Assembly (NCBI RefSeq): GCF_000425385.1
Contig: NZ_KE384359.1
Coordinates: 175,406 to 239,405 of the forward strand
Reading direction: 5' to 3'
DNA from: Pseudoduganella violaceinigra DSM 15887
GTDB lineage: Bacteria > Pseudomonadota > Gammaproteobacteria > Burkholderiales > Burkholderiaceae_D
DNA length: 64,000 nucleotides
Under the pieces are notes generated by a model that did not search any database, was not told the origin of the DNA, and saw nothing but the letters and a program-made list of their open reading frames with translations. Made by a program: the position numbers and the translations under genes. Below, one piece after another: positions 29,758 through 38,578 of the stretch. Each line of letters starts with the position of its first letter. Within the stretch, counting starts at the first letter, position 1.

Positions 29758-32004
29758 GTGCCAGCAAAGAAACCTGAAACCAAAGCGGCTGAAAAGCCTC
29801 GCAAAGTGACCGCCAAGCCCGCGACGAAGTCGGCTGAAAAACCGGCTACTCGCGTTACCAAGGCTCCGCCGGCGGTTAGTCAGACTACGGACGCGGCCAC
29901 ACTTGCCGCCATCGATACTTCCGGATACGTGCTGCCAACCGTCAAGGTGCCGGGCCGCCGTGGCCGCAAGCCGAAGGAATTTACGCCCGAAAATGACGAG
30001 GTTGCAGCGCTGAACGCGGTTGAGCGTGCCGAGTTGAAGGCTGCGGACAAGGCGAAAGCCAAGGACCGCAAGGCCAAGGAAAAGGCACTGCTGAAAGACG
30101 CGTTCTCGTCCGATACCGAGGCCACCGAAGAGGAACTCGAACGCCGCCGCCAGAAGCTCAAGACGCTGATCAAGTTCGGCAAGGAGCGCGGCTTCCTCAC
30201 GTACGCTGAAATCAACGACCACCTGCCAGAAAATATCGTCGATCCGGAAGCGATCGAGGGCATTATCGGCACCTTCAACGACATGGGCATCGCCGTGTAT
30301 GAGCACGCGCCCGATGCCGAGACCCTGCTGCTGTCGGATAACGTCGCCACTGTCACCAGCGACGACGAAGCCGAAGCCGCCGCGGAAGCCGCGCTGTCCA
30401 CCGTCGATTCCGATTTCGGCCGCACCACCGACCCGGTGCGCATGTATATGCGCGAAATGGGTTCGGTCGAGCTGTTGACCCGCGAAGGCGAGATCGAAAT
30501 CGCCAAACGTATCGAAGACGGCCTGCGCGACATGATTCAGGCGATTTCCGCCTGCCCGGTGACGATCGCCGAGATCCTCGCCACCTCGGAACGCATCCGC
30601 ATCGACGAGATCAAGATCGACGAAATCGTCGACGGGCTGGTCGATGAGGACGGTGAAAACGTCGCCAGCGCGTCCGCCGCTTCCGAAGAGGAAGACGAGG
30701 AAGACGACGAGGGGGAAGAGGACGAGGAAGAAGAGGAAGAAGCCGCCAGTCCGGGCGGCGCGGCAGCCGGCTACACCGCCGAGCAGCTGGAAGCGATGAA
30801 AGTCGCTGCCCTGGAAAAATTCGACAATATCGGCAACCAGTTCGAACGCATGCGCAAGGCGTTCGAAAAGGATGGCTACAACTCGAAGGCCTACCTGAAG
30901 GCGCAGGAATCCATTTCCGGCGAGCTGCTGGGCATCCGTTTCACCGCCAAAGTGGTGGAGAAACTGTGCGACACGCTGCGCGGCCAGGTCGATGAGGTGC
31001 GCCATATCGAGAAGCAGATCCTGGACGTGGCCGTGAACAAGTGCGGCATGCCGCGCGCTCACTTCATCAAGGTCTTCCCGGGGAATGAAACCAACCTGGA
31101 ATGGGTGGATGGCGAAGTCGCCGCTGGTCACGCGTACAGCGCGATCCTGGGCCGTAATATCCCGACCATCAAGGAACTGCAGCAGCGCCTGATCGACCTG
31201 CAAGCGCGCGTCGTGCTGCCGCTGCCGGACCTGCGCAACATCAACCGCCAGATGGCGGCCGGTGAAATGAAAGCGCGCAAAGCCAAGCGTGAAATGACCG
31301 AGGCCAACCTGCGCCTGGTGATTTCGATCGCCAAGAAGTACACCAATCGCGGCCTGCAATTCCTCGACCTGATCCAGGAAGGCAATATCGGCCTGATGAA
31401 GGCGGTCGACAAGTTCGAATACCGCCGCGGCTATAAGTTCTCGACCTATGCAACGTGGTGGATCCGCCAGGCGATCACCCGCTCCATCGCCGACCAGGCG
31501 CGTACCATCCGTATTCCGGTGCACATGATCGAAACGATCAACAAGATGAACCGGATCTCGCGCCAGATCCTGCAGGAGACCGGCGCCGAGCCGGATCCGG
31601 CAACCCTGGCGATCAAGATGGAAATGCCAGAGGATAAGATCCGCAAGATCATGAAGATCGCGAAGGAGCCGATCTCGATGGAAACGCCGATCGGTGACGA
31701 CGACGATTCCCATCTGGGCGACTTCATCGAGGACAACAACACGCTGGCGCCTTCGGACGCGGCGCTGCATGCCTCGATGCGCGGCGTGGTCAAGGATGTG
31801 CTGGACTCGCTGACGCCGCGCGAAGCCAAGGTGCTGCGCATGCGTTTCGGGATCGAAATGTCGACCGACCATACGCTGGAAGAGGTTGGCAAACAGTTCG
31901 ATGTGACGCGCGAACGTATCCGCCAGATCGAAGCCAAGGCATTGCGCAAACTGCGCCACCCATCGCGTTCCGACAAGCTGAAGAGCTTCCTGGAAGGTAA
32001 CTAA
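29758..32004 (+). CDS. rpoD: RNA polymerase primary sigma factor RpoD (sigma-70)
   Basis: 748 residues, longer than E. coli RpoD (613) because of a Lys/Ala/Pro-rich N-terminal extension (about 1-60) and a very acidic insert ([20 protein letters not shown], about 308-330) within the non-conserved region. Region 1.1 at about 115-190; region 1.2 from [15 protein letters not shown]; regions 2.1-2.4 at about 514-590 ([32 protein letters not shown]); region 4.2 HTH at the C-terminus ([20 protein letters not shown]). GTG start at 29758 with a poor ribosome site. It directs most transcription. Followed by a perfect hairpin and the disrupted tRNA gene. Confidence 0.98.
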
Positions 32005-32048: not shown

Positions 32049-32095
32049 GGGCCTCTAGCTCACGCTTGGTTAGAGCAGCGGACTCATAATCCGTT
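32049..32095 (+). pseudogene. 5' fragment of a disrupted tRNA gene (CAU anticodon, tRNA-Ile2 type)
   Basis: Acceptor strand GGGCCTC (32049-32055), D arm GCTC...GAGC, and anticodon stem-loop GCGGA-CTCATAA-TCCGT with anticodon CAT. After 32095 the sequence departs from any tRNA: there is no TTCGA T-loop and no GAGGCCT acceptor strand. The missing 3' half is at 35824-35869. Together the two would make a 79-nt tRNA with encoded CCA. Broken at the 14-bp core by island insertion, so it cannot yield a tRNA. Confidence 0.88.
32082..32095 (+). repeat. left attachment core (attL)
   Basis: ACTCATAATCCGTT, part of the anticodon stem-loop, identical to 35824-35837. Flanking bases differ on the island side, which defines the 14-bp crossover core. 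Confidence 0.85.
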
Positions 32096-32145
32096 AGTGC
32101 CGAGCTTAGTGCTGCTGCGGATTGGGAAGTAAAATCAGTGAAAAC

Positions 32146-32178
32146 AAGGACTTAGGTGAAAACCCAAGTCCTTTTTTT
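32146..32178 (+). terminator. Rho-independent terminator inside the left island end
   Basis: AAGGACTT (32146-32153) pairs with AAGTCCTT (32166-32173), followed by seven T residues. It stops rpoD/tRNA read-through into the island. Confidence 0.8.
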
Positions 32179-32191
32179 ATTGCCGTTGGGT

Positions 32192-32213
32192 ATTTCGGTA
32201 CAATTTCGGTACA
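32192..32213 (+). repeat. tandem 11-bp direct repeats near the left island end
   Basis: ATTTCGGTACA occurs twice back to back (32192-32202, 32203-32213), between the attachment core and the integrase start. Such short repeats are typical of integrase or excisionase arm-binding sites. Confidence 0.55.
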
Positions 32214-32244
32214 GTAAGCAAAATTTGAAAGTACTGGAGCGCTA

Positions 32245-32562
32245 GTGGCGACGATCGTTAAGACCCCATCGGGAACCTGGAAGGCAGTTATACGGAAGAC
32301 GGGATGGCCCACCACCGTCAAGACATTCCGCCTGAAGAAAGACGCTGAGGATTGGGCGCGTGGTACTGAAGATGAGATGGTGCGCGGCATGTTCATCAAA
32401 CGCGCTCCATCTGAACGTATGACTTTCGAGGCGGCCATGAAGCGATACCTGGCCGAAGTCATCACTATTTGTGGTGGCTCAAACTTGACCGGACAGGCGA
32501 CGTCGCAGGGACTGTCAGACGGCGGGACGGCTCATGCGTCAGTCCGGAAATTGCGGGGATAA
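32245..32562 (+). pseudogene. truncated tyrosine-type integrase (N-terminal part only)
   Basis: GTG start at 32245. The first roughly 72 residues (TPSGTWKAVIRKTGWPTTVK, FRLKKDAEDWARGTEDEM, TFEAAMKRYLAEV) are the arm-binding and first core-binding portion of a phage/ICE tyrosine integrase. From about 32461 the sequence diverges into an unrelated tail that stops at 32562, and the next island gene begins 51 bp on. The catalytic domain with the R-H-R-H-Y residues is absent. It lies 150 bp inside the left attachment core, the standard position for an island integrase. Confidence 0.85.
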
Positions 32563-32612
32563 GCCCACATTCAACATAATATTTAAGGGCGTGCGTATCG
32601 AGGAGCGGCCGA

Positions 32613-33284
32613 TTAGTTCCTTAGGGACGAGATTTCAGCGAAGGCGCTTCGCCCCTTGTCAGTTAGGCTCCAATAGTGGCGAGGTCCGCCCGTAGTGGTG
32701 GCAAGACCATTTTGTTGGAGCCAACGCAATGTCTCGATAACTGTGCCCTCTGCGATATTTGCATCCTTTGAGATTCCCTGCACCGTGCGCCTCGAGTATT
32801 TGCTGTCGCCAAGCGCCTTAATTACCTTGGACGCGTCGTCCCCCGTAAGACCATACGCCTCGACTCTGAATGCACTTTCGTTGCTTTTATGTTGGTCAGG
32901 CTCGGTCTCTTTGTCGATGATTGGCTTGACTTCATCCTTTAGGTTCTTAACATCACGCTTTGTTTCCTCCGCAAGTCTAAGTACCTTTTGCGAAAGTGAC
33001 TGAATCATTGATTTCGAACTAATGGCGCCGAGCAAGCAGAAACCGAAAAAGACGAACGGATCTGCGCTGCCTGCCGTGCCATTCAACAGCCCAGCCAAAA
33101 GCGAGCTGGAAATTGTGTTTAGGAACAGCGGTATGAGAAACGCAGCTCCAAGACCAATAACCACAGACCAGCAGCCATCACGCCACGTCGATTCTTTGGT
33201 TCTCGCCTGCGCAAAATTTACGAGGCCACCAAATGTACCTGCGCAAACTATTAGACTAATTACATTGCAATTTGTCAGTGTCAT
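32613..33284 (-). CDS. membrane protein with C-terminal winged helix, island cargo
   Basis: 223 residues. Three hydrophobic helices at about 5-24, 36-68 and 75-95, then a polar coiled-coil linker (LSQKVLRLAEETKRDVKNLK), then a C-terminal winged helix (about 150-223: RRTVQGISKDANIAEGTVIE, LRWLQQNGLA, YWSLTDKG). It resembles proteins annotated as YEATS-associated helix proteins, an identification I hold loosely. A membrane anchor joined to a DNA-binding-like domain suggests signal transduction or a defence function. ATG at 33284. Same strand as the RHH-HTH gene, 27 bp downstream of it, so probably one operon. Confidence 0.65.
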   Translation of the reverse strand: MTLTNCNVISLIVCAGTFGGLVNFAQARTKESTWRDGCWSVVIGLGAAFLIPLFLNTISSSLLAGLLNGTAGSADPFVFFGFCLLGAISSKSMIQSLSQKVLRLAEETKRDVKNLKDEVKPIIDKETEPDQHKSNESAFRVEAYGLTGDDASKVIKALGDSKYSRRTVQGISKDANIAEGTVIETLRWLQQNGLATTTGGPRHYWSLTDKGRSAFAEISSLRN

Positions 33285-33311
33285 GTTCGGCGCCTCACAG
33301 CGAATATCGTT

Positions 33312-34265
33312 TTAGGCTGCATCCATTGACGTTACGCCCTCGCGGATCTTTGTGCGAAGTTCGTTTAGATGATTTCTGGCCGAGATTACCCGTTCAATGC
33401 GCTCGTACAGAGACTTCCAGCCCGTCCAATACGTATGTTTGGGGGCCATCTTATGATCCCAAATGTCTTCCCACCACATGGAGCGGCTGCGATCGTTCAG
33501 TAGCGAGCCAGGATGTGTGTTTCCGCCGGTTAGTTGAGTCACGTCATCCGCAGGAAGAAGATAACCAAGCACCATTAGACCTCCAAGTGATGTATAGCGT
33601 TTATACAGTAACTCGAGAGTAACGAAGAGAGCGGCGAGAGCCGCTTCGCCACCAGCGCCGATTTCTTCGGATACGTGAATTGTCGTGTAGTAAGTGCGGA
33701 AGTGCCCCTTGTCAGACTCTTTTACGATATACAAGCTACCAGTTGAATTATCGGCACGAATGAGGTGGAGGACGGAAAGTTTTTCCTCGGGGTTAGCGAC
33801 AGTCGTTGGCCAAGCCAGCAGCCACTCCACGGCTTCGAACGGATTTTCAGACAAGCGCATAAATTCAGGTGGGAACAGCGCTTTATCACCATGCTTTAGC
33901 CAATCGGCGTCAACACCTAACAGATTTGCGATCGCGGATAGTTGGGAGAAGCTAGGTTCTTTGTTACCCAGGAACCAGTCCTCTACGTCTTCGGCCCGCT
34001 CCTCCTTTATCGCTTCGGCGATATGTGAAGCGGCTAATTTAGATCCCCTGCGACCAGAATTCACTTGCGTCAACATTCGATTGAGGCGCTCTGCAACCTC
34101 TTTGCGACGTGTGTTCCTGCTTTCCTGCACCAATGCAGGCTCAACCCACGCCTTCAGTGCTTGGCGAGCTTCTGCTTCTGTAGATCGATCATGAAGTTCG
34201 GCGAATGATTCCAAGGCGCGAAAGATCGAACTGGGAATGTTTCTGATGGCGATTTTATTGAACAT
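33312..34265 (-). CDS. ribbon-helix-helix plus XRE-type HTH fusion protein, island cargo
   Basis: 317 residues. N-terminus (about 1-45) is a FitA/Arc-like ribbon-helix-helix: KIAIRNIPSSIFRALESFAE, HDRSTEAEARQAL. Residues about 55-110 form a Cro/C1-type HTH (KLAASHIAEAIKEERAEDVE, PSFSQLSAIANLLGVDADWL). The last 200 residues are an unassigned alpha/beta domain (GSLYIVKESDKGHFRTYYTT) ending in a helical segment. Antitoxins usually carry one of these DNA-binding folds, not both. ATG at 34265. Probably the first gene of an operon with the membrane protein; TGATATCA lies just upstream. Confidence 0.75.
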   Translation of the reverse strand: MFNKIAIRNIPSSIFRALESFAELHDRSTEAEARQALKAWVEPALVQESRNTRRKEVAERLNRMLTQVNSGRRGSKLAASHIAEAIKEERAEDVEDWFLGNKEPSFSQLSAIANLLGVDADWLKHGDKALFPPEFMRLSENPFEAVEWLLAWPTTVANPEEKLSVLHLIRADNSTGSLYIVKESDKGHFRTYYTTIHVSEEIGAGGEAALAALFVTLELLYKRYTSLGGLMVLGYLLPADDVTQLTGGNTHPGSLLNDRSRSMWWEDIWDHKMAPKHTYWTGWKSLYERIERVISARNHLNELRTKIREGVTSMDAA

Positions 34266-34521
34266 GATCTCTTTCCGTTCCGATGATTCAAAATGATATC
34301 AAATTGTCTTTGTTGTGCGTAATGAGTATATTCCGATCATTTTGTTGGAATGTCAAGGCCAAATTGACGGGGAATCTTGCTGAACGGTGATTGAGTTGTT
34401 GAGCCGGACCTCGACTTCCAGAGAGAGTTAGTAACGCGTCTCGAGGAAGCCCGAAGCTGTAGTCCGCATTATTGTTGAATGGTAATATAATTGCCATTTG
34501 CGCAATCGCTAGGAACCCCAA
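34266..34521. promoter_or_regulatory. AT-rich divergent promoter region inside the island
   Basis: 256 bp separating the minus-strand RHH-HTH gene from the plus-strand SEC-C gene. It includes the palindrome TGATATCA about 30 bp upstream of the RHH-HTH start, a likely autoregulatory operator. No convincing protein. Confidence 0.4.
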
Positions 34522-35154
34522 GTGTTAAAAGCTCCAGTCACTCCTGCTTTCCTGAGTCGTTCCATCGAAACGTTGTGTGAAGAACTTTCGCCAGGCCAAA
34601 CTCCGCAATATGTTGAAGTCGTAGCCGACCCATGTGCTCGGGTGCATGAGTGTTTCCCGAACGTGTTGACAAAAGTGGACTGCGACGGAGGGGCGGTGGT
34701 AATCGGCTGGTCGATATGGGAGTCACCCGGACTCTTTGTTGAGGCAGAGTTTCACGCAGTATGGCGGTCGCCAGAGGGCATCTTGATCGACATTACGCCA
34801 AAGGCAACGCACGACAGAAGCATTCTGTTTTTGCTTCAGCCTGAAGCGATATATGCCGGCCGGCAGGTAAATAACGTTCGTCGCTCGATTAGTGCCGATC
34901 CGGATGTTGAGACCTACCTACGAGCGCATGACGCAATGTTTGAGTTCATGAATCGTGGTGACCGAGCTGGGCAGCATGGGGAAGTGTCCATAGCTGGCCA
35001 GGATGTGCTTGAATACGAGGCTATAGCTGGCAACATCCTTATGCTTAGCGCTCGGATTGCGAACCGTTCAAAGCGCTACGATCCATACGTCCCCTGTTGG
35101 TGTGGGAGTGGGAAGAAGTCGAAGTGGTGTCATAAGGGCCCCATCCCAGCGTAA
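34522..35154 (+). CDS. SEC-C motif protein, island cargo
   Basis: 210 residues. A globular domain of about 185 residues (VVADPCARVHECFPNVLTKV, AVWRSPEGILIDITPK) ends in a SEC-C zinc motif, CWCGSGKKSKWCHKG, the CxC...C(H) fold shared with SecA tails. The main domain has no family I can name. SEC-C tails are common on accessory and defence-island proteins. GTG start at 34522 with AGGA upstream. Its transcript would end at the hairpin at 35222-35251. Confidence 0.75.
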   Translation: MLKAPVTPAFLSRSIETLCEELSPGQTPQYVEVVADPCARVHECFPNVLTKVDCDGGAVVIGWSIWESPGLFVEAEFHAVWRSPEGILIDITPKATHDRSILFLLQPEAIYAGRQVNNVRRSISADPDVETYLRAHDAMFEFMNRGDRAGQHGEVSIAGQDVLEYEAIAGNILMLSARIANRSKRYDPYVPCWCGSGKKSKWCHKGPIPA

Positions 35155-35221
35155 TGGAGTGGCGCTAGGCGATGTGCTGCCATTGGCATGGGGGAGCTCG
35201 CTAAAGTATGGTGGCAAACAA

Positions 35222-35251
35222 AAAGGGTTGCGAAGTTTTTCGCAACCCTTT
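35222..35251. terminator. bidirectional terminator between the SEC-C gene and the intron-containing tRNA
   Basis: Perfect 12-bp stem (AAAGGGTTGCGA / TCGCAACCCTTT) with a 6-nt loop. On the minus strand it is followed by a T-rich run, so it ends the tRNA transcript; on the plus strand it ends the SEC-C transcript. Confidence 0.85.
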
Positions 35252-35268
35252 GATCTTACTGCTGAATT

Positions 35269-35552
35269 TGGTAGGCCTCCCGTGAGTCGAACACGGCACC
35301 AACGGATTCCGGTTTGCGTGACTTTCGCCACTCCCTGGACTATGCCTTCACCATAGCTCGCGCCTTAGGTGGGTGCCGTCTAGTCTCTACACCTTCAACA
35401 GCGCTTTCGCACTGAGGCTTGGCTCGGCATTGCCATACGCATCGCTGCGCTTAGGTTTCACCGAATTTGACACCATCCCTTACGTGGTTTCCCCTCGTAA
35501 GGCACATTTGCATATGAGTCCGCTGCTCTAACCAAGCATGAGCTAGAGGCCC
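35269..35552 (-). tRNA. complete tRNA gene, CAU anticodon (tRNA-Ile2 type), interrupted by a group I intron
   Basis: 5' exon 35552-35514 (39 nt) and 3' exon 35308-35269 (40 nt) join to a 79-nt tRNA with encoded CCA. Acceptor GGGCCTC/GAGGCCT, D arm GCTC/GAGC, anticodon stem GCGGA/TCCGT with loop CTCATAA (anticodon CAT), T arm CCGTG-TTCGACT-CACGG, discriminator A. All stems pair. The 205-bp intron sits between positions 36 and 37. The body closely matches the split host tRNA except in the D loop, variable loop and T stem. Isoleucine identity (after TilS modification of C34) is inferred from the Azoarcus parallel; elongator Met is the alternative. Own promoter and terminator are visible. Confidence 0.9.
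35309..35513 (-). ncRNA. group I self-splicing intron (Azoarcus tRNA-Ile type)
   Basis: 205 nt, no reading frame. Hallmarks on the minus strand: internal guide GTG near the 5' end that pairs with the exon triplet CAT; GAAA tetraloops in P2 and P9 (GTGGCGAAAGTCAC); the catalytic core segments AGAGACTAGACGGCACCC and CACCTAAGG; a terminal G at 35309 (omega-G). The core is nearly the same as the well-studied Azoarcus intron, recalled from memory, including total length and insertion point. It should self-splice with guanosine. Confidence 0.93.
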
Positions 35553-35561
35553 AAAACCGAT

Positions 35562-35590
35562 ACTTTACCTCAGCGACGGCAAGTCGCCAA
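35562..35590 (-). promoter_or_regulatory. predicted sigma-70 promoter of the intron-containing tRNA gene
   Basis: Minus strand: -35 TTGGCG (35590-35585), 17-bp spacer, -10 TAAAGT (35567-35562), nine bases before the mature 5' end, which gives a leader of only a few nucleotides. The rest of 35591-35823 shows no gene. Confidence 0.6.
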
Positions 35591-35823
35591 GTGAGCCACT
35601 TTACAGATGCGATGCAAATAGGTGCTGATCAGCTAAGTTCCGTTGGTATTGCCATGTGGACGGTAGGCGCCAAGGACGCAGTTCGGTACATCAGCGGTAC
35701 ACTCGTTATGATCCGCAAATTTATCTGGATTTCGCTAACCCATTGATTTGTTGTATACTATTGCCTTCATTAACCTGTGCTTACTTTACCTCGATTTCCC
35801 TACGGACACGGTTTCGCTGGCAA
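35591..35823. other. non-coding right end of the island
   Basis: AT-rich, no credible gene. It lacks a D arm or acceptor strand upstream of the right attachment core, which is why the right-hand tRNA half is not reconstituted. Confidence 0.5.
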
Positions 35824-35869
35824 ACTCATAATCCGTTGGTACCCGGTTCGACTCCGGGGAGGCCTACCA
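35824..35869 (+). pseudogene. 3' fragment of the disrupted tRNA gene, with right attachment core (attR)
   Basis: Starts with the core ACTCATAATCCGTT (35824-35837), then a variable loop, T arm CCCGG-TTCGACT-CCGGG, acceptor GAGGCCT, discriminator A and CCA. The bases upstream (TTTCGCTGGCAA) are not a tRNA 5' half. It completes the 5' piece at 32049-32095 exactly, giving the pre-insertion host tRNA. Confidence 0.88.
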
Positions 35870-36077: not shown

Positions 36078-37460
36078 ATGTATGCAATTCGATCTCCCAA
36101 GGTATTCTTTGTCGCCGCTTGTCTGTTACTTGGCGCTTGCAGTTCGGGCCGTCCGCCAAGCGGACCATACGCCGCCTGGTTGAATCAGGACGAGTCCGTA
36201 AAATCGGTCAAGCAAAATGGGCCGTTCACTATTCTGCATGTCGAGTGGCGCAATTATCGCTGGGGCTCGTTCAGCCCCCTGCCACAGGATTACGACAGGG
36301 TGCTCCACGGTGACAAGGTCGTCATTGAAAGGGCTGAGCCGGCTGAGCCCTGGCAGGGCGCGGGGCAGGCAGCGATTCTTGCGTACCGTTATGCAGGCGA
36401 TCAATCCCCGCTTCAGCTCGTGTATGAGCGCAAGGGAAAAGCCGTTGTTGAGCGCTTGGACGTGGGCAGCGCGGCGACCACCGTTGGCGAGGATATCGGC
36501 CCCGGCTTGCGCTATTTTTCCAGCGGCGGAAAATATAACGCCGGCTTTTTGTTGAAGGGCTTTCCCGTCGAGATAAAGCCGTTGCCGTTGGGCCTTTCGA
36601 ATCCGTCGATCACTTATCTTGCCGGTATCGCTCCTGACTTGAGCGCATTCGCCTACGCGGATTCGCCGAATGCTCCTACGGTAGTGGCGCTGGTCGACTT
36701 GCAAGGCCAAACCGGCGATCCTCTTCCTATTCCGGCGACGACGGGAGTTTCTGACAAAGTGCGGGTGGATGGACCACCGGGCCAAATTCACCCTTGGTTC
36801 GACGCGCGTTTCAAGTGGCAACAGAACGCCGCCGGCCGATGGGATATAGCCAAGGCCGCTGGCGAAAGTACCAGCCACAGGACGACCAACGCGGTCGAGG
36901 AGATCTTCCTCGATGCCAGCACGGGATATGACAATTGCTTTGCCAGCAGCAGCCCTGCATGCCTGCCAGGCTGGCGCCGGCAGATGGACGGCGGCGCAGC
37001 AGCTTACGCGACATGTTCCTGCGAAGCGCCGTATGTTTATCAGCCAGAGCAGGCAACCCTGGCGTTTGGCGCCCATGTGCGCAGCATGCACTATGCGCGA
37101 GCGAAAAGTGGCTCTGCATACCACCTGGTCCTTGACGCACCGCCGGAGAAAGTGGCCAGCGAATTTCGCAAGCGCTTGGCGGGCCGGGGGATCAAGCACT
37201 TGGCTCCAGAGGGAATTTCGACGGAGAGCGTAGAAACTTTTCTTGGTGAGGAAAGCTGGCGCGACGCCTGGATCCGATTGGTTGCCGACAAACCGCAGTC
37301 CCTCCAGTTTGTCATGCCCACGGTAGCAGTGCGTATCGAAGCATTTGGCCAAGGAACGATTATCAGCACCATTGCACGCTATCCAGACAAGCAACACCGA
37401 CCTGACGCATCTGGACGACGTAATCCGTCAGAGCCGGCCGCTTTGAATTATCAACCATGA
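36078..37460 (+). CDS. predicted lipoprotein of unknown function
   Basis: 460 residues. Signal peptide with lipobox LLLGACSSG, so acylated at about Cys18. The mature part is beta-rich with several cysteines near 285-320 (CFASSSPACLPGW, YATCSCEAPYVY). The ATG at 36078 is the only start giving a clean signal peptide; ribosome site weak. Its stop overlaps the next ATG (ATGA), so the downstream gene is coupled. The last about 25 residues after IARYPDKQ look non-conserved, because a second copy of this tail, found at 38581-38679, ends right there. No family recognised. Confidence 0.75.
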   Translation: MYAIRSPKVFFVAACLLLGACSSGRPPSGPYAAWLNQDESVKSVKQNGPFTILHVEWRNYRWGSFSPLPQDYDRVLHGDKVVIERAEPAEPWQGAGQAAILAYRYAGDQSPLQLVYERKGKAVVERLDVGSAATTVGEDIGPGLRYFSSGGKYNAGFLLKGFPVEIKPLPLGLSNPSITYLAGIAPDLSAFAYADSPNAPTVVALVDLQGQTGDPLPIPATTGVSDKVRVDGPPGQIHPWFDARFKWQQNAAGRWDIAKAAGESTSHRTTNAVEEIFLDASTGYDNCFASSSPACLPGWRRQMDGGAAAYATCSCEAPYVYQPEQATLAFGAHVRSMHYARAKSGSAYHLVLDAPPEKVASEFRKRLAGRGIKHLAPEGISTESVETFLGEESWRDAWIRLVADKPQSLQFVMPTVAVRIEAFGQGTIISTIARYPDKQHRPDASGRRNPSEPAALNYQP

Positions 37461-38578
37461 ATATTTACCGATCTTTTGCCGCCGTCGTCATGGCGCTGTT
37501 GTTCCCATGTGCACAAGCGCTGGAACTGCAGCTGAAGGATAGCGATTTTGGCCCGAACCATATGGGGTTTGCCGCAGACGGTGCGCGCGCATGCCTCGCC
37601 AGCGACCATTTTGATCCGGATGCGGCACAAAACGGCGCCGAGCTGACGGTGGTCGATTACCAGCGTAACGCCGTGCTTTGGACAAAGCGCATCGCCGCAC
37701 CGAACGGTTTCGCTTCCTTGAGAGCGAAGCAATGTGTCTTCGATGGCGATAACGTGTACCTTCTTGCGAATGCCAACACGCGGAGCCAGAGTACATTGAA
37801 CCAGACCTTGGTGTATGTTTATCGGTTCGACGTCCAGGGAAAGGAGCTTGGCCACAAAGAGCTTTCGCTTCCGGGACGGAATCGCTACGGCTACGCCATT
37901 GGGGCATCGCCTTTTGGCGTAGTCGTTGCAGGCTATTCCAAAGACGAAGACGGGGATGCCGAATACAATTCGACGTTTACAGTATCGCTCGACAAGAAGC
38001 TGGGCGTGGGAACAGTCAGTCTGCGGAAAACGGGAGCATTTGCCAGCTCCGCCGCTGCGCGTTTCGTTGGCGATCAACTGTATATCGCAGGAGAATTCGT
38101 TCCTGCGAAATTGAACAAGCAGGACTATGCAATTGATTACGCTCAGTCGCGCATCCTGTCGAACGGCGGCTATGCCTGGAGTGTTCGTCCATTCAAACAG
38201 GAGTACAGGTCGGTTGAAGCGGTAGTGTCTCCGCGCGGACTCATTTACTCCTTGTCCAGCAAGGGTAGTACTTCGACCTTGGCCGTAACGAGCGCAGAGG
38301 GCAAACAACTCTCATTGACTAGCTTTGATGGGAAATTCTGTAGGACGCAATCGATCTCCGAGTATGGCAATGGCGTGATCGCGGTGCGTGAGCCGTGCAG
38401 TGGGCAAGGCAAAACTGCGGCATTGCTTTCCATAGCGCCGGCTGACGGCAAAGAAGTAGTCCAGCATCTGGTCTCGGGTGAACCCGTTTTTGTGGCGACC
38501 CATAACGAGCAATGGTTCATCGTTGCGAAGGATGGCACGAATCGCTTTTTCCTTCACTCCGGCGCAATCAAGGAATAA
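37457..38578 (+). CDS. secreted repeat-rich protein, paralogue of the gene at 38688
   Basis: 373 residues. Signal peptide about 1-22 (PCAQALELQL). The body alternates strands with blocks shared with the protein at 38688: MGFAAD, ARACL, NQTLVYVYRF, KTGAFASSAAARFVGDQLYI, NGGYAWSVRPF, LAVTSAEGKQLSL, SISEYGNGVIAVREPCSG. This looks like a beta-propeller-type extracytoplasmic protein. It is 122 residues shorter than its paralogue because it lacks the C-terminal domain. ATG at 37457 overlaps the lipoprotein stop. Confidence 0.75.
   Translation: MNIYRSFAAVVMALLFPCAQALELQLKDSDFGPNHMGFAADGARACLASDHFDPDAAQNGAELTVVDYQRNAVLWTKRIAAPNGFASLRAKQCVFDGDNVYLLANANTRSQSTLNQTLVYVYRFDVQGKELGHKELSLPGRNRYGYAIGASPFGVVVAGYSKDEDGDAEYNSTFTVSLDKKLGVGTVSLRKTGAFASSAAARFVGDQLYIAGEFVPAKLNKQDYAIDYAQSRILSNGGYAWSVRPFKQEYRSVEAVVSPRGLIYSLSSKGSTSTLAVTSAEGKQLSLTSFDGKFCRTQSISEYGNGVIAVREPCSGQGKTAALLSIAPADGKEVVQHLVSGEPVFVATHNEQWFIVAKDGTNRFFLHSGAIKE

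Follow-up and report, generated by a model that had tools for sequence, protein, structure and literature searches.

A probable integrative-element remnant that splits the tRNA-Ile(CAU) gene of Pseudoduganella violaceinigra and carries an intron-containing second copy

How can a bacterium live with a tRNA-Ile(CAU) gene that has been cut in two? The question is raised by a locus of Pseudoduganella violaceinigra DSM 15887 (GCF_000425385.1, genome G000 of the survey), situated in a 64-kb stretch of contig NZ_KE384359.1 (175,406-239,405, forward strand) that was analysed as a whole and is called the window below. Here, 3' of rpoD, the host tRNA-Ile(CAU) gene can be read directly as two pieces separated by a 3,742-bp island, and both copies of a 14-bp direct repeat, ACTCATAATCCGTT, lie within the tRNA at the junctions, as is characteristic of integrative islands. 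Inside the island, on the opposite strand, is a complete tRNA-Ile(CAU) gene (35552-35269, minus strand) that is itself split by a 205-nt group I intron. An earlier sequence-only reading had described the halves of one tRNA gene about 3.7 kb apart with their 14-bp repeat, as well as the complete gene of the same type on the opposite strand, and both descriptions agree with the coordinates given here:

29758-32004, plus strand: rpoD, upstream of the tRNA site (open reading frame, the C-terminal end of which adjoins the tRNA-Ile(CAU) locus in relatives)
32049-32087, plus strand: orphan 5' half of the host tRNA-Ile(CAU) gene (sequence reading and relatives)
32082-32095, plus strand: left 14-bp direct repeat, the core of attL (sequence reading)
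35222-35251, minus strand: terminator-like hairpin with a 13-bp stem, after the carried tRNA
35269-35308, minus strand: exon 2 of the carried tRNA-Ile(CAU) (sequence reading)
35309-35513, minus strand: group I intron of 205 nt between the anticodon CAU and A37 (RF00028 and compensatory changes)
35514-35552, minus strand: exon 1 of the carried tRNA-Ile(CAU) (sequence reading)
35824-35837, plus strand: right 14-bp direct repeat, the core of attR (sequence reading)
35830-35869, plus strand: orphan 3' half of the host tRNA-Ile(CAU) gene (sequence reading and relatives)

We consider it probable that the window island derives from an integrative element, now a remnant, that recombined inside the anticodon loop of tRNA-Ile(CAU), brought a complete second tRNA-Ile(CAU) gene as compensation for the one it destroyed, and kept this replacement hidden from its own integrase. 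The replacement part of this explanation we hold with high confidence; the masking role of the intron is evenly poised.

Fusion of the two halves gives a 79-nt tRNA, the intact counterpart of which in the related genome G016 (99% over 82 nt) likewise follows rpoD. An intact tRNA after rpoD in relatives had been set beforehand as the check on the insertion model, and its presence leaves that model standing. ARAGORN in its default form reports no tRNA in the 64-kb window, and therefore neither joint rebuilds a tRNA, as the earlier reading had also maintained; restoration of the tRNA at a junction was thus ruled out. The same blank result implies that genome annotation misses such genes. The integrase fragment, the paired repeats at the island ends, the role of the intron and the recurrence in relatives described below are all additions to what had been noticed earlier.

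The intron of the carried gene matches the group I model RF00028 over its entire length (model positions 1-253 of 253) with 53 bits, the gathering score being 50, and E = 9.7e-13 in a 501-bp stretch, such that the conserved catalytic core is recognized by the covariance model. In group I introns a U before the 5' splice site pairs with the guide G and the terminal base is a G, as outlined in PMC11915505; here CAT precedes ATGCAAATGTG and the terminal intron base, as judged by eye, is G. An RNA alignment of the window intron with 22 of the 30 listed introns reveals, across these 23 sequences, compensatory two-sided changes that keep the pair at 29 of the 59 predicted pairs. Such changes are the expectation for a working RNA and speak indirectly for the function of this putatively self-splicing intron. 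Cupriavidus megaplasmids (L432, L433 and L434) code for intronless tRNA-Ile(CAU) genes with exons nearly identical to those of the carried copy, and possibly represent its donor type.

The host genome yields 61 matches to RF00005 (E of 0.01 or lower), and possesses four other complete CAU genes, namely two identical initiator Met genes and a second identical pair that, by elimination, must be elongator Met. An intact intronless tRNA-Ile(CAU) is found neither by a pattern search of the genome nor in the 61-match inventory, which also contains no tRNA with a UAU anticodon. Thus, the carried gene appears to be the lone tRNA-Ile(CAU) of the host, the condition on which the earlier reading had made the island an essential passenger; its sole-copy status is provisional because the 41-contig draft is also devoid of tRNA-Ile(GAU) and tRNA-Ala(UGC), presumably lost from the assembly along with the rRNA operons, and such a gap could hide a tRNA. 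AUA codons are in use, with 4 among the 211 codons of the SEC-C-like gene of the island and 1 among 374 in the open reading frame at 37457-38578. Given that no other tRNA-Ile(CAU) was found in the draft, we infer that the carried copy is expressed and, as far as sequence permits, probably essential; as the sole source of an AUA-reading tRNA it would tie the host to the island.

Examination of the genus reveals RF00028 matches in 9 of its 74 genomes, seven of them in tRNA-Ile(CAU) and two in tRNA-Leu. None of the seven carriers of the tRNA-Ile(CAU) intron (G000, G013, G017, G035, G063, G073 and G094) has an intact intronless tRNA-Ile(CAU), which is present in 64 of the 67 other genomes and hence in 64 of the 74; comparison of 7/7 with 3/67 genomes without an intact gene gives a Fisher p of 7e-8 when kinship is ignored. 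Beyond the seven carriers, the ten genomes without an intact gene include the incomplete G091 and G006 and the complete, one-contig G065, in which neither the intact-gene pattern nor RF00028 found a match and no similar tRNA of full length was seen; G065 could have a tRNA-Ile(CAU) gene that is divergent or interrupted in another way. In G013, G073 and G094 rpoD is separated from the intron copy by a 5' half, and the same arrangement in these relatives strongly supports the earlier proposal that the element imported a whole second gene. In G017, G035 and G063 the intron copy itself follows rpoD and an orphan half was not found, while G021, G016 and G048 combine an intact gene with a 3' half 2 to 10 kb off, which is the usual rebuilding mode. 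On contig C12 of G084 (282368-283179) an intact intronless tRNA-Ile(CAU) gene occurs twice, at a spacing of about 730 bp.

A complete version of the element is present in G073, where it spans about 16 kb: the 5' half is followed by 160 bp, the intron copy and a 462-aa integrase (PHROG_1, E = 2.3e-29; a Pfam search gave no match), and some 15.8 kb beyond the left core comes an intact 3' half, itself followed after 1.6 kb by a second one. The intron of this element (78.2 bits) is larger than that of the window and differs from it. Besides Type ISP restriction-modification genes and an AAA ATPase, the cargo includes a second, short protein of the integrase family.

A pattern scan of GTDB species genomes recovered at least 118 stretches, of which at least 94 passed a filter for intron-bearing tRNA-Ile(CAU) that lost a few likely introns (e.g. 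L125 and L158). Among the matches listed, to which this and the next two comparisons are confined, 36 of the 83 intron copies with at least 500 bp of upstream sequence are preceded by an orphan 5' half, as opposed to 0 of 30 intronless genes (26 of the genus of the window and 4 of other genera), orphan-half scores being 42 or more and the best shuffle 25. Downstream integrase homologues accompany 10 of the 38 orphan-half copies, 1 of the 47 that lack such a half and 1 of 9 with a short flank. The distance from rpoD to the copy is 203-1012 bp at 20 orphan-half loci (203-273 bp at 13 of them) versus 32-171 bp at nine of ten loci without an orphan half (710 bp at the tenth); this short distance indicates that the intron copy there occupies the native slot, which it perhaps reached by deletion between the two 39-nt repeats. 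A second genus, g38, with a matched control of its own, shows an orphan 5' half at 16 of 25 intron copies and at 1 of 30 intronless genes, and this exception (L369) is a carried intronless copy beside a worn 5' half. Three genomes (G923, G926 and G933) have 3-4 RF00028 matches each, some on the same strand and tens of kb apart, which suggests arrays of such islands. On viral contigs, 7 of 18 pattern matches (L253, L254, L255, L258, L260, L266 and L268) look, by a simple motif only, like a tRNA(CAU) with a group I intron; known phage introns are all in protein genes according to the review PMC3984707.

How the element cuts the gene is indicated by its integrase and its junctions. A conserved tyrosine integrase is often located downstream of the intron copies, and matches to this family were obtained in 13 of 399 genomes of the order, 3 of 26 of family f17 and 62 of 151 of genus g38; an alignment search across the class, run without a positive control, gave 0 of 369 genomes at E 1e-60, and a plasmid search returned two distant integrases. 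Relatives of the integrase are found beside rebuilt tRNA-Ile (L231), tRNA-Lys and tRNA-Phe genes. A same-family integrase also adjoins an apparent 5' half of a tRNA-Lys(CUU) gene (L234 in G464), and a Polynucleobacter-1 RNA (RF01718, 96 bits) is present near another integrase relative (L236, 3634-3767). The left junctions (64, being 85 rows less 21 intron copies, with some genomes represented twice) form, after CTCATAA, families common to different genomes and in some cases to different families of bacteria, and in the largest of these only ACTCATAA matches the tRNA before the sequence diverges. The restriction of the match to ACTCATAA and the recurrence of the junction families place the crossover in the anticodon loop and show that the site on the element is without the 3' half. 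With an attachment site that holds little beyond the loop, integration would cut the gene without rebuilding it, and at the level of nucleotide sequence such a cut is demonstrated.

A replacement with an unaltered anticodon loop would itself offer the integrase a target, and it may be hidden by the intron or, in four genomes, by a changed anticodon stem. Both intron positions lie inside CTCATAA. At 17 loci chosen by their integrase and having both an orphan half and a carried copy, the intron follows CAT in nine and precedes it in three, four copies lack an intron but have anticodon stems with compensated changes, of three kinds, and one is intronless and unaltered. The GGACTCATAATCC stem occurs in 145 of 145 intact-gene pattern matches of two genera (L302 and L369 among them), where the patterns demand AGAGCA and TTGGT and would miss some stem variants for other reasons. 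The before-CAT introns fall below the Rfam gathering score (33.2 bits in G868, 34.9 bits in G094), as do L331 and L332, called introns by resemblance; integrase loci with a 3' exon only (L306, L308-L312, L319, L325 and L326) were left unclassified. Two variants touch on the same theme: in G115 (L235 and L332) two successive orphan 5' halves precede an intron copy, as if a carried intronless copy had in turn been cut by a second element, and the L125 intron begins like the after-CAT type and ends like the before-CAT type, making a hybrid intron possible. The broader proposal, that a family of elements in Burkholderiales adopted self-splicing introns as shields, with the integrase site split in DNA and healed in RNA, comes close to an even chance without quite reaching it.

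Several observations weigh against the replacement-and-masking explanation. The lone unaltered intronless copy of the 17 (L302 in G982) is joined by L369 (G943) from the control, which brings such copies to 2 of 18, and finding L369 lowered our estimate for masking. An orphan half was not seen at 47 of the 83 intron copies with sufficient flank among the matches listed. Of the 61 g38 genomes that match RF00028, 11 possess an intact intronless gene as well; in 25 of the 151 genomes of g38 the searches used recovered neither an intact gene nor an RF00028 match; and 4 of 30 fetched loci did not pair with Ile exons, such that the RF00028 matches include other genes. The copy in the window is inverted and sits at the right end, unlike those of G013, G073 and G094. 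Finally, the sequence-only reading had credited the carried gene with its own promoter and terminator; the terminator is backed by the 13-bp stem at 35251-35222 (terminator-like sites being no commoner than in shuffled sequence), but a consensus promoter scan found no site for this copy, and only a weak TTGGCG-17-TAAAGT is visible by eye.

The strongest alternative accepts that the replacement is real and holds the intron to be incidental, a donor gene with a common anticodon-loop intron having been captured with no benefit to the element. It would readily account for the two unaltered intronless carried copies, bacterial tRNA group I introns usually lie beside the anticodon anyway (PMC4033280), and two members of the genus have such introns in tRNA-Leu (L033 and L038). 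However, four intronless copies with three kinds of stem change are not expected from the capture of common genes, and two separate intron positions each fall inside CTCATAA; we regard an incidental intron as a serious contender, somewhat short of an even prospect.

The remaining contents of the island are as follows:

32194-32213, plus strand: TTCGGTACA present twice at a spacing of 11 bp, candidate arm sites of the integrase
32245-32562, plus strand: N-terminal fragment of an integrase, the first 105 aa (PHROG_1 integrase, E = 1.8e-4)
32613-33284, minus strand: membrane protein with a YLATT domain and a C-terminal winged-helix-like part (PF20303, E = 8.2e-25)
33312-34265, minus strand: putative regulator with FitA-like ribbon-helix-helix and helix-turn-helix regions (PF22513, E = 1e-7; PHROG repressors)
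34522-35154, plus strand: 210-aa protein with a C-terminal SEC-C-like motif (PHROG_37148, E = 7e-49; SEC-C below cut-off)
35682-35701, plus strand: TTCGGTACA and GCGGTACA at a spacing of 11 bp, candidate arm sites of the integrase

All three occurrences of TTCGGTACA in the 64 kb are at the ends of the island, and repeats paired at 11-12 bp stand inside both ends of the window island and of the G013 element, with one perfect and one imperfect copy in the right-end pair of G073; they could serve as arm sites of the integrase. An intact tyrosine integrase is present in G073 and others, whereas the window island has only the 105-aa fragment, for which a Pfam search gave no match; its former mobility is therefore surmised from the relatives. 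A prophage origin was rejected, as there is no structural gene among the window-island or tested G073 proteins and the G073 integrase was unmatched in phages at 1e-15; a search of viral contigs for the integrase gave 80 pattern matches and no confirmed case. The YLATT-domain protein additionally shows weak PADLOC similarity to CRISPR-associated regulators.

The inverted position of the window copy at the far end, together with an integrase that is merely a fragment, could be explained by two unrelated events, with a small island splitting the gene and the intron copy, derived from another island or a host duplication, being trapped or inverted later. The same-sequence paired repeats inside both ends and the fact that G013, G073 and G094 likewise combine a split gene with an intron copy render this unlikely. 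Even less credence attaches to a conventional island that rebuilt the tRNA from a matching 3' half, the gene so restored having decayed after the separate arrival of a redundant intron copy: some left junctions (e.g. those of the window and G073) resemble by eye a worn tRNA 3' half, and tRNA genes (tRNA-Ile in L231, tRNA-Lys and tRNA-Phe in several cases) are indeed rebuilt by relatives of the integrase, but the left junctions are conserved in families across genomes with no individual decay, and the largest family matches the tRNA over ACTCATAA alone. An assembly or annotation artefact, conceivable for a draft of 41 contigs, is negligibly probable, as the locus is embedded in a contig of 332 kb and independent assemblies, some of them a single contig, show the same arrangement.

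If the explanation of a masked replacement is correct, a mobile element has become indispensable by putting its own copy in place of a tRNA gene that it destroyed, and protection against a DNA recombinase is provided by a ribozyme. Small group I introns without homing endonucleases would then spread inside whole tRNA genes that the host cannot lose, and the system would offer a testable bacterial version of an idea previously raised for Archaea. Searches of an open-licence collection, from which most subscription papers are absent, brought to light no bacterial case of this kind.

The Azoarcus-type intron of pre-tRNA-Ile is 205 nt long. This group I intron (PMC3984707) resembles the one described here in residing in the same tRNA, apparently at the same position after CAU, and in its similar size; it has no link to integrative elements in the description given there, and a word search of the main text of that review found no mention of integrase, prophage or genomic island. 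The elements share their integrase, direct repeats and tRNA target with tRNA-gene genomic islands that encode tyrosine integrases; the usual island of that kind rebuilds the gene, whereas those studied here substitute a separate copy. Tycheposons are likewise elements of the tyrosine recombinase type with a complete tRNA gene at their border. As described briefly in PMC10872708, with no mention of an intron, they are comparable in both respects. Randau and Soll (2008; cited via PMC4090602 and PMC4033280) proposed that tRNA introns shield tRNA genes from integration, and as in their proposal the intron here interrupts attB; theirs concerns protection of the host in Archaea, whereas here the shielded gene travels on the element. 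The nearest parallel is the insertion in Caldiarchaeum, in which a recombinase, an orphan tRNA-Thr 5' fragment and an intron-bearing tRNA-Thr occur together and for which the intron was suggested to protect the integrated element against further invasion (Sugahara et al. 2012, PMC3293823). In both systems an intron-bearing tRNA gene is preceded by an orphan 5' fragment and has a recombinase beside it; the Caldiarchaeum case, as presented there, is archaeal, with protein-spliced introns in one population, whereas the present one is bacterial and occurs in many genomes, with an identified integrase family and an intron that is a ribozyme and lies in the crossover bases. Thus, the archaeal precedent is published, and the bacterial arrangement is a variant of it.

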